This document shows positions 1,458-7,907 of a DNA stretch of 27,927 nucleotides, in pieces (positions within the stretch are counted from its first letter, which is position 1; every line of letters starts with the position of its first letter). This stretch comes from Alphaproteobacteria bacterium (GTDB lineage Bacteria > Pseudomonadota > Alphaproteobacteria > Rhizobiales > Rhizobiaceae): the NCBI GenBank assembly GCA_017308345.1, contig JAFKFE010000168.1, positions 1 through 27,927 on the forward strand, read 5' to 3'. The position numbers were made by a program, and so were the translations under genes. The notes beneath the pieces were generated by a model. That model ran no database searches, was not told where the DNA came from, and saw only the letters and a program-made list of their open reading frames with translations.

Positions 1458-1482
1458 GGAACAAGTTCGGGAAAACGGTGTT
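1458..1482 (+). promoter_or_regulatory. Candidate EcfG-type (general stress) promoter of the ferritin-like gene
   Basis: GGAAC at 1458-1462 is followed after 16 bases by TGTT at 1479-1482. This fits the alphaproteobacterial general-stress sigma factor pattern (GGAAC, 16-17 bases, CGTT) except for the first -10 base. The -10 is about 33 bases upstream of the start codon at 1516, a normal distance. Confidence 0.6.
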
Positions 1483-3752: not shown

Positions 3753-3777
3753 AACCCGGTGCCGGCGCCATGGTTCC
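3753..3777 (-). promoter_or_regulatory. Candidate EcfG-type promoter of the BrkB-like gene
   Basis: On the minus strand GGAAC (3777-3773) and GGTT (3756-3753) are separated by 16 bases, close to the general-stress consensus. The -35 element begins only three bases beyond the T-tract of the small-RNA terminator, so the two transcription units abut without overlapping. Confidence 0.55.
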
Positions 3778-3779
3778 GG

Positions 3780-3817
3780 AAAAAAGGCCCGCCCGGCAGC
3801 CAGGAGGCCGGGCGGGC
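3780..3817 (-). terminator. Strong intrinsic terminator, minus strand
   Basis: An 11-bp perfect GC stem (GCCCGCCCGGC at 3787-3797, GCCGGGCGGGC at 3807-3817) with a 9-nt loop is followed on the minus strand by C and six T's (plus-strand A's 3780-3785). No minus-strand protein gene ends here. It closes the candidate small RNA described next. Confidence 0.85.
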
Positions 3818-3878
3818 AAATCGGGCTTGATGGAACCCTAGGACGACAGGCTTGAGGAATGTGGAAGCCTGCCGCCCG
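3780..3878 (-). ncRNA. Candidate small regulatory RNA, about 99 nt
   Basis: A GGAAC-N17-TGTT promoter (3910-3885) predicts a start near 3879-3876, and an intrinsic terminator ends at 3780. Between them the minus-strand RNA can form a first hairpin (CAGGCTT/AAGCCTG, 7 bp) whose 11-nt loop contains UUCCUC. The loop of the terminator hairpin contains CUCCU. Both loop motifs are complementary to Shine-Dalgarno sequences, a feature of several alphaproteobacterial trans-acting sRNAs. No credible protein is encoded. The 3541-4064 stretch otherwise holds only the BrkB promoter and leader. The 5' end is an estimate. Confidence 0.55.
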
Positions 3879-3884
3879 AAGCCA

Positions 3885-3910
3885 AACATGCAGGAGGCGA
3901 GATCGGTTCC
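3885..3910 (-). promoter_or_regulatory. Candidate EcfG-type promoter of the small RNA
   Basis: On the minus strand GGAAC occupies 3910-3906 and TGTT(T) begins at 3888, with 17 bases between. It differs from GGAAC-N17-CGTT only in the first -10 base. No other gene lies on this strand between it and the terminator at 3780-3817. Confidence 0.55.
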
Positions 3911-5001: not shown

Positions 5002-5304
5002 TTATTGCCCCGTCTGCGGCGGCACCTCGCCCGGCTTGATCACCGGCATTTCGCTGCCGGTCGGCGGCGGGTTCGTCGCGTTGTTGTCGCCGGTCGGCGG
5101 GGGCTTCAGCACGCCGCCGCAATTGCCGAGCTGTTTCGACAGTTCATCCGTATCGGCCTGCTGCTTCTGTTTCTGCTGTTGGCCGTTGGCATCGGGCTGG
5201 GCCTGGCAGTCCTGCGTCCGCTGATCCGGCTGCTGGGAGGTCTGGGCCGCCGCCGGCAGTGCCGGCATGAGCGAGACGGCCGCGATGAGAAGCGCTTTCT
5301 TCAT
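5002..5304 (-). CDS. Secreted Gln/Pro-rich protein, 100 aa
   Basis: The ATG at 5304 is preceded by GAGGAGG at a six-base spacing, which decides the start. Residues 1-19 are a signal peptide (MKKALLIAAVSLMPALPAAA), giving a periplasmic or secreted product. The mature chain is low complexity: Gln-rich around residues 20-55, with two cysteines (in TQDCQAQ and GNCGG), then a Pro/Gly/Asn-rich tail with a repeated PPPTG motif. No family recognised; a disordered envelope peptide is likely. It is the second gene of a two-gene unit; its ribosome site overlaps the stop codon of the 50-aa gene upstream. Confidence 0.78.
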   Translation of the reverse strand: MKKALLIAAVSLMPALPAAAQTSQQPDQRTQDCQAQPDANGQQQKQKQQADTDELSKQLGNCGGVLKPPPTGDNNATNPPPTGSEMPVIKPGEVPPQTGQ

Positions 5305-5314
5305 GGGATCCTCC

Positions 5315-5467
5315 TCATGGCGCTTTCGGCTTCGGCTTGTCGCGGTCGGCGGCATCGACCTTGCGCCGCACGGCACGGTGCCTGGGCGTCGTCTTGGCAG
5401 CGTCCGGTTTCTTGGCGGCGGCTGATTTGCAGGCCGCGCCGGTTTTCGCTCGGCTGCTGGTCGGCAT
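5315..5467 (-). CDS. Very small Lys/Ala-rich protein, 50 aa
   Basis: This short frame begins at ATG 5467-5465 with AAAGGAG seven bases upstream and stops at TGA 5317-5315. The product is strongly basic, rich in Lys, Ala and Pro (TGAACKSAAAKKPDAAK, then DRDKPKPKAP at the end), with no membrane segment. It resembles disordered histone-like tails and may bind nucleic acid, but no family is recognised. Its stop codon (TGA) is followed immediately by the GGAGG of the next gene, ten bases before that start, so the two are very probably translationally coupled. It falls below common length cut-offs for gene callers. Confidence 0.6.
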   Translation of the reverse strand: MPTSSRAKTGAACKSAAAKKPDAAKTTPRHRAVRRKVDAADRDKPKPKAP

Positions 5468-7464: not shown

Positions 7465-7907
7465 AGCAACGGCAGGGCGGCCAGGCCGATCGCCATGGCG
7501 ATCAGCGTGGCATGGCCGAGTCGTTCCGCACGCCTGGCCATGTCGGCGACCACGTCCTCATCGTTGATGATGTCGAGGAACGAAAGATCGGCAAGCGTGG
7601 CACGCTGGTTGTCGTTGGCAGGCAGGCTTTCGGAATCCTGCCGGGCGGGCTTTGCAGAAATGTTGGTCAAAACGTCGTCTCGCTCCGAAGCCGGCTGCGC
7701 GGCGTTCCTGTTGGTGGGTATTGGTGCCCGCCGGAATTGGGCGGGGGGCGACCGGCGGGCACCAGGACGGCCGGCGATGGAGGGGGCTTTTCTCGACGGC
7801 CGCTCCCCAATCCGTGGAAAGCAGATTGGTTGCATAGGCCAGTCCAATGCGTTGGTCAGGTCGGACTTCAGTCTGACCCGGGTCACGAAATGTTTCAGCA
7901 GGAACAT
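7446..7907 (-). CDS. Hypothetical tail-anchored membrane protein, 153 aa
   Basis: The C-terminal 22 residues form one hydrophobic helix (TLIAMAIGLAALPLLYLMLA) preceded by an acidic helix (FLDIINDEDVVADMARRAERLG). The rest is polar, Pro/Arg-rich and probably disordered, so the protein would be anchored by its tail with a cytosolic N-terminus. The start at 7907 lies about 28 bases after the predicted transcription start of a GGAAC-N16-GGTT promoter, though the AAAGG ribosome site is too close to it. A shorter form from the ATG at about 7835 is possible. No family recognised. Confidence 0.6.
   Translation of the reverse strand: MFLLKHFVTRVRLKSDLTNALDWPMQPICFPRIGERPSRKAPSIAGRPGARRSPPAQFRRAPIPTNRNAAQPASERDDVLTNISAKPARQDSESLPANDNQRATLADLSFLDIINDEDVVADMARRAERLGHATLIAMAIGLAALPLLYLMLA

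Follow-up and report, generated by a model that had tools for sequence, protein, structure and literature searches.

The general stress response of alphaproteobacteria is known mainly for a protein switch, PhyR-NepR-EcfG. GsrN of Caulobacter has a general-stress sigma promoter directly ahead of its gene and an exposed C-rich loop near its 5' end (PMC5869019). The same source assigns putative rhizobial homologues of GsrN by their proximity to the ecfG-phyR locus, a placement to which Caulobacter crescentus itself is an exception (PMC5869019). SmelA075 and SmelA099 are presented as CCUCCUCCC anti-Shine-Dalgarno (anti-SD) RNAs of Rhizobiales, and SmelA075 was suggested to be stress-induced (PMC3927594). 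In Sinorhizobium meliloti, 23 sRNAs have predicted Sigma-E2 (RpoE2) motifs upstream, and for eight intergenic regions microarrays lend support (PMC3616915). For M. huakuii, a further study tabulates 16 novel sRNA candidates, given by coordinates (PMC5596092).

The locus described here lies in a stretch of 27,927 nucleotides (the window) and probably holds a real, unannotated sRNA gene that is EcfG-driven and belongs to a Mesorhizobium family without an Rfam entry. Compared by description, the element resembles GsrN and the GsrN-like RNAs of Rhizobiaceae in having a general-stress promoter directly ahead of the RNA gene. It also shares with GsrN a C-rich loop at the 5' side, which in the window reads CCACAUUCCUC. 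A general-stress sigma promoter before an sRNA is likewise of a known kind when set beside the RpoE2-dependent sRNAs of S. meliloti, to which the element is likened by description. Unlike the GsrN-like RNAs as described there, the window element stands beside Atu_At1 and brkB (contig C1267) and away from ecfG-nepR-phyR, with nepR on contig C990 of an assembly in 1307 contigs. Also unlike GsrN, again compared by description, the family of the window element has three C-rich hairpins and occurs in several copies.

Promoter, fold and neighbours of the predicted sRNA element

An earlier note on this DNA had proposed a minus-strand promoter of the form GGAAC-N17-TGTT at 3910-3885, and an EcfG-type promoter is present there (3885-3910). 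It is kept in two relatives (G079 and G132), and a third (G113) carries AGTT as its -10. The arrangement GGAAC-N16/17-NGTT, with TGTT as the -10, stands at the right distance from a predicted sRNA of about 100 nt (3780-3878, minus strand; fold z -5.2 and covariance models R1 and R3), whose 5' end we infer from promoter spacing to lie near 3878. Across the window, GGAAC-N16..18-GTT has 8 matches, whereas 100 shuffles average 1.11 and none reached 8; the 8 matches are 6 distinct places, because two sites match on both strands. Requiring [CG]GTT as the -10 leaves 3 matches where 0.89 would be expected, a count attained by 6 of 100 shuffles; the element's own promoter, with TGTT, falls outside this set.

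The RNA from 3880 to 3780 folds with a minimum free energy of -55.1 kcal/mol (z -5.2), and none of 200 shuffles was as stable. Two hairpins had been described earlier; the fold shows three. Hairpin 1 (3841-3877, minus strand) has the loop CCACAUUCCUC, and hairpin 2 (3823-3838, minus strand), previously undescribed, has the loop CCAUCA. Hairpin 3 (3780-3817, minus strand) is the intrinsic terminator, with the loop CUCCUGGCU and a T-tail. A terminator had been placed here, about 100 bases beyond the promoter, and it is present with a GC stem of 11 bp (stem-loop 3817-3787) and a T-run (tail 3786-3780). A simple terminator scan, which permits loops of 3-8, missed it; the loop here has 9. The element has an intrinsic terminator and a structured RNA, with no credible protein frame.

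As had been stated, the T-run stops at 3780 and GGAAC begins three bases further on, at 3777. The further statement that the intergenic region is fully partitioned up to the BrkB gene fell, as Rfam places the sRNA Atu_At1 (RF02496; 88.4 bits, cut-off 60) at 3747-3640 on the minus strand. The second EcfG-type promoter at 3777-3753 (GGAAC-N16-GGTT, minus strand, a motif match), which had been taken for that of BrkB, therefore stands first before Atu_At1; the brkB-like gene (PF03631; 2608-3540, minus strand) follows downstream. At1-like starts were located by word match in 32 of 61 brkB-upstream sequences (60 regions, two of them short, and the window). Within 45 nt upstream of these starts, GGAAC-N15-18-NNTT was found in 32 of 32, and shuffling gives an expectation of about 4% for GGAAC in a comparable stretch. 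Matches to At1 occur in 80 of 146 genomes of the genus at E<=0.001. By its sequence, the locus is predicted to hold two EcfG-type sRNA genes in tandem, followed by brkB. If the general-stress reading of the element holds, Atu_At1 would also be under EcfG in Mesorhizobium. Like the element, Atu_At1 is an sRNA gene that has, in this genus, an EcfG-like promoter; the two adjoin, and the element itself has no RF02496 match.

Relatives in Mesorhizobium and the covariance models

DNA BLAST within the genus, taken to be Mesorhizobium, found the element in 3 of 146 genomes, its own included; the two relatives were G079 (94%) and G132, the latter over the terminator part. A reading of the element as private, drawn from BLAST, was rejected when covariance models showed the limit of BLAST sensitivity. 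The alignment of the three sequences (window, G079 and G132) has weak covariation, with 2 pairs changed on both sides, a level reached by 50 of 500 shuffles. A covariance model of these three, R1, yields a fourth copy upstream of brkB in G113 (71.6 bits), and the window's own subtype is rare (4 of 146 genomes). Copies at other places were also matched by R1. In G127, G058, G086 and G076 they lie downstream of brkB, at a distance of about 3 to 3.6 kb (a Crp-like gene adjoins the G058 copy). The copy in G104 is 1.2 kb upstream of brkB, and that in G044, whose sequence type is shared by G125, G005 and G072, comes after a kinase and a response-regulator gene. All nine start with GGAAC-N-NGTT. Weaker copies, which make up one more type (group E, L164-L168), occur in the same region in G127, G086, G076, G113 and G132.

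R1 matches below 30 bits were not accepted alone, because antisense matches to the terminator palindrome reach 26-28 bits; one locus at 27.6 bits (L104), which has no promoter, was not accepted. A text scan for a promoter followed by a GC terminator, which takes no account of hairpins 1 and 2, picked out 15 places across the window and 12 regions; 13 of the 15 are R1 matches.

The second model, R3, is based on A7, a structure-fitted alignment of 13 members. A7 was used for the counts because the consensus of the plain alignment A5 lacks hairpin 1, and the group E copies stayed outside it with scores that were too low. In A7, 94.1% of cells are paired and 22 of 31 pairs show changes on both sides, with none of 500 shuffles as high; these figures are favoured by fitting to the model and come from related sequences. 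As a control, shifting the partner by one column brought pairing below 50%. Changes on both sides were seen in 10 of 13 pairs of hairpin 1, 2 of 7 of hairpin 2 (2 further pairs are invariant) and 10 of 11 of the terminator hairpin. The window element, itself a training member (129.2 bits), combines an EcfG-type promoter with three co-varying hairpins.

R3 has matches in 77 of 146 Mesorhizobium genomes at E<=0.01. These are 129 matches, 115 of them at E<=0.001, and 13 of the 115 are training members. The check across Mesorhizobium that had been suggested earlier came out in favour of the element: promoter, hairpins and terminator are conserved jointly, with covariation. With deeper scoring, 25 of 37 genomes have a match at E<=0.001 and 12 have none, in a set that was chosen by hand, is rich in complete assemblies and is non-random. 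Four genomes (G032, G134, G140 and G143) carry six copies each. In a sample of 297 genomes of the family, R3 matches 3 genomes outside the genus, at 27-29 bits. In an order sample, also of 297 genomes, there is no match outside Mesorhizobium, a difference from the RpoE2 sRNAs of S. meliloti; at least six Mesorhizobium genomes in that sample are also without a match. The contrast between the genus and its surroundings is somewhat overstated, because fewer candidates per genome were scored outside it (11 in the family and order samples, against 23 in the scan of 146 genomes and 92 in the 37). When 69 of 80 named brkB loci were scanned, R3 yielded 12 matches at E<=0.1, each of them in a Mesorhizobium record. 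The genome of the window has one clear copy and one further weak match (18.8 bits) in an assembly that is 79.9% complete. A match of 21.3 bits within the window (7718-7834, minus strand) has no promoter and was taken as chance.

Rfam 15 has no match at or above its curated cut-off over the element in the window, and over the element in relatives (sets of 12, 12 and 20 loci) none reached the cut-off. Weak matches far below the cut-offs, among them sX13 (18.3 bits), CC3664 (17.4) and Pxr (16.9), were set aside. No description of an R3-type family was found in the titles and abstract beginnings of the papers retrieved from the open-licence literature, where the M. huakuii candidates appear as coordinates. 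The copies form a predicted RNA family without an Rfam entry, with an EcfG-type promoter and three hairpins with C-rich loops, the last of which is the terminator.

At ten loci (L053, L054, L056, L063, L064, L065, L068, L069, L077 and L085), a second type of element occupies the place of the window sRNA directly upstream of At1. It is built of a GAAAC/GGAAC ... GAGTT promoter, a hairpin and a terminator with a CUCCC-like loop (model R2), and it was kept separate from the R3 family. R3, which had no R2-type training, matches two R2-type copies at the same places (L258; G100). Distant homology of the two is possible and is not claimed.

Loops, proposed function and rival readings

A strict promoter stands before 50 of 61 aligned R3 matches (59 sources) and is missing from 11; since its columns are part of both R1 and R3, promoters in matches are there partly by construction. 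Among 61 members with a strict promoter, the -10 is AGTT in 29, GGTT in 20, TGTT in 8 and CGTT in 4. Reading at the level of sequence covered at most 58 of the 129 R3 matches beyond the training members. The loop counts cover 69 distinct members that start with GGAAC, with the match at 7718-7834, rows lacking the GGAAC start and repeats identical over the compared stretch left out. All but one of the 69 fold into three hairpins, and the remaining one into two. An inverted repeat, TTAG-N-CTAA, lies in the spacer between -35 and -10 of 16 of the 69 members (for example L184, L192-L194, L201, L205-L207, L211, L215 and L219) and may be where an additional regulator binds.

The loops of the 69 members are 55% C and 23% U. 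Tetramers resembling anti-SD words are present in 101 of 206 loops, only slightly above the 89.2 that loop composition predicts, and 19 of the 69 members have CCUCC or CUCCC in a loop. The family loops are C-rich as such, rather than tuned to one word. The strings UUCCUC and CUCCU, which the earlier note had read in two loops, are both present, but the exact anti-SD letters are only partly conserved. Among the four sequences of the window's subtype, CAUUCCUCAA is kept in 3, while the terminator loop has CUCCU in 1 and UCCU in 3.

RNAs of the SmelA075/SmelA099 type that carry CCUCCUCCC, also known as 'cuckoo RNAs', are like the family, by description, in having three (or four) hairpins, pyrimidine-rich loops of anti-SD kind, variable stems and several copies per genome; the genome of the window has one clear copy. 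Their loop sequence CCUCCUCCC was found in 0 of the 69 family members. By analogy, the element would work like GsrN and the CCUCCUCCC RNAs, and it is filed under neither.

It is fairly likely, judged from sequence, that the element is a trans-acting sRNA gene of the general (EcfG) stress response and that the C-rich loops of its RNA pair with ribosome sites rich in G. EcfG control is proposed because of the promoter and because NepR scores above its cut-off in the same genome; pairing with ribosome sites is proposed because of the precedents of GsrN and SmelA075. Under stress, PhyR would free the sigma factor EcfG from NepR, and EcfG would start transcription at about 3878. RNA polymerase would halt at the terminator and release an RNA of about 100 nt with three hairpins. 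Strong stems would keep the pyrimidine-rich, mostly C, loops open, and these may pair with G-rich stretches of mRNA, such as ribosome-binding sites, and lower translation. Transcription, EcfG dependence and the pairing with mRNA targets are what we infer. When the three loops were tried in duplexes with At1 and with seven start regions of the window, no clear partner emerged; the lowest p in 24 tests was 0.03. The stress-sRNA reading of the earlier note is supported in part: as an unannotated EcfG-type gene, here one member of a multi-copy family, it is backed by conserved promoter, hairpins and terminator, by covariation and by the lack of a conserved protein frame, while its specific anti-SD strings are weakened.

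Several other accounts of the element were weighed. The stretch could have no role in trans, being a short transcript driven by EcfG, or a terminator insulating the unit of At1 and brkB, and be kept for reasons in cis. It does end three bases ahead of the At1 promoter, and in G132 and G113 the element also lies upstream of brkB. This account is nonetheless unlikely: relatives stand at unrelated places, such as about 3 kb downstream of brkB or near kinase and response-regulator genes, and insulation needs neither two hairpins before the terminator nor C-rich loops. A sponge, with loops that bind other small RNAs or an RNA-binding protein in place of mRNAs, would suit an RNA that has three similar C-rich loops and is present in several copies in a genome, which could titrate one partner. 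At1, the sole partner compared, shows no clear complementarity to the three loops (p 0.55 to 0.73), and a sponge is regarded as distinctly unlikely.

Up to six copies per genome and strong palindromes are also what a mobile, REP-like repeat without RNA function would display. Such a repeat is very improbable, given that promoter, three hairpins and T-rich end keep a fixed order while the stem letters vary, and that in four genomes the copies found downstream of brkB occupy similar positions. The last account makes the stretch the gene or the leader of a small protein, or else part of a brkB frame extended at its N-terminus; it is scarcely credible and was graded as already contradicted. Within the predicted RNA, a TTG at 3819 is the sole start codon and lacks an obvious SD; in the window its frame does run open into brkB (an ORF of 404 aa). 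No frame is conserved, because a stop lies 6 nt ahead of the brkB start in G079 and directly ahead of it in G132, and the G132 element has indels of +1, -1 and -1 that break the frame. The terminator and At1, moreover, intervene before brkB. The earlier view that no credible protein lies here is thereby borne out.

A wider proposal can be made tentatively, as one that may or may not hold. The family could be a multi-copy, EcfG-driven sRNA arm of the general stress response that is Mesorhizobium's own, with three hairpins and C-rich loops, diversified inside the genus, where about half of the species would carry between one and six copies, and standing here in tandem with At1. Such an arm would act after transcription, as a layer of the stress response with an origin separate from those of GsrN and the CCUCCUCCC RNAs. 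If true, a genus of legume symbionts would hold an RNA family that co-varies, can be searched for and is predicted to be under stress control.

Some smaller observations were made along the way. Near the family copy of G086, L105:1993-2136 (plus strand) has a sub-threshold match to the Brucella sRNA BASRCI27 (48.8 bits, cut-off 59.8). In the window, an EcfG-type motif GGAAC-N-TGTT at 1458-1482 (plus strand) lies shortly upstream of a DUF892 gene (1516-2028), and the surroundings resemble a cluster of general-stress genes. A small protein without a Pfam match is encoded at 5005-5343 (minus strand) and ends in MPVIKPGEVPPQTGQ; a homologous end is found directly upstream of the sRNA element in G132 and G068.
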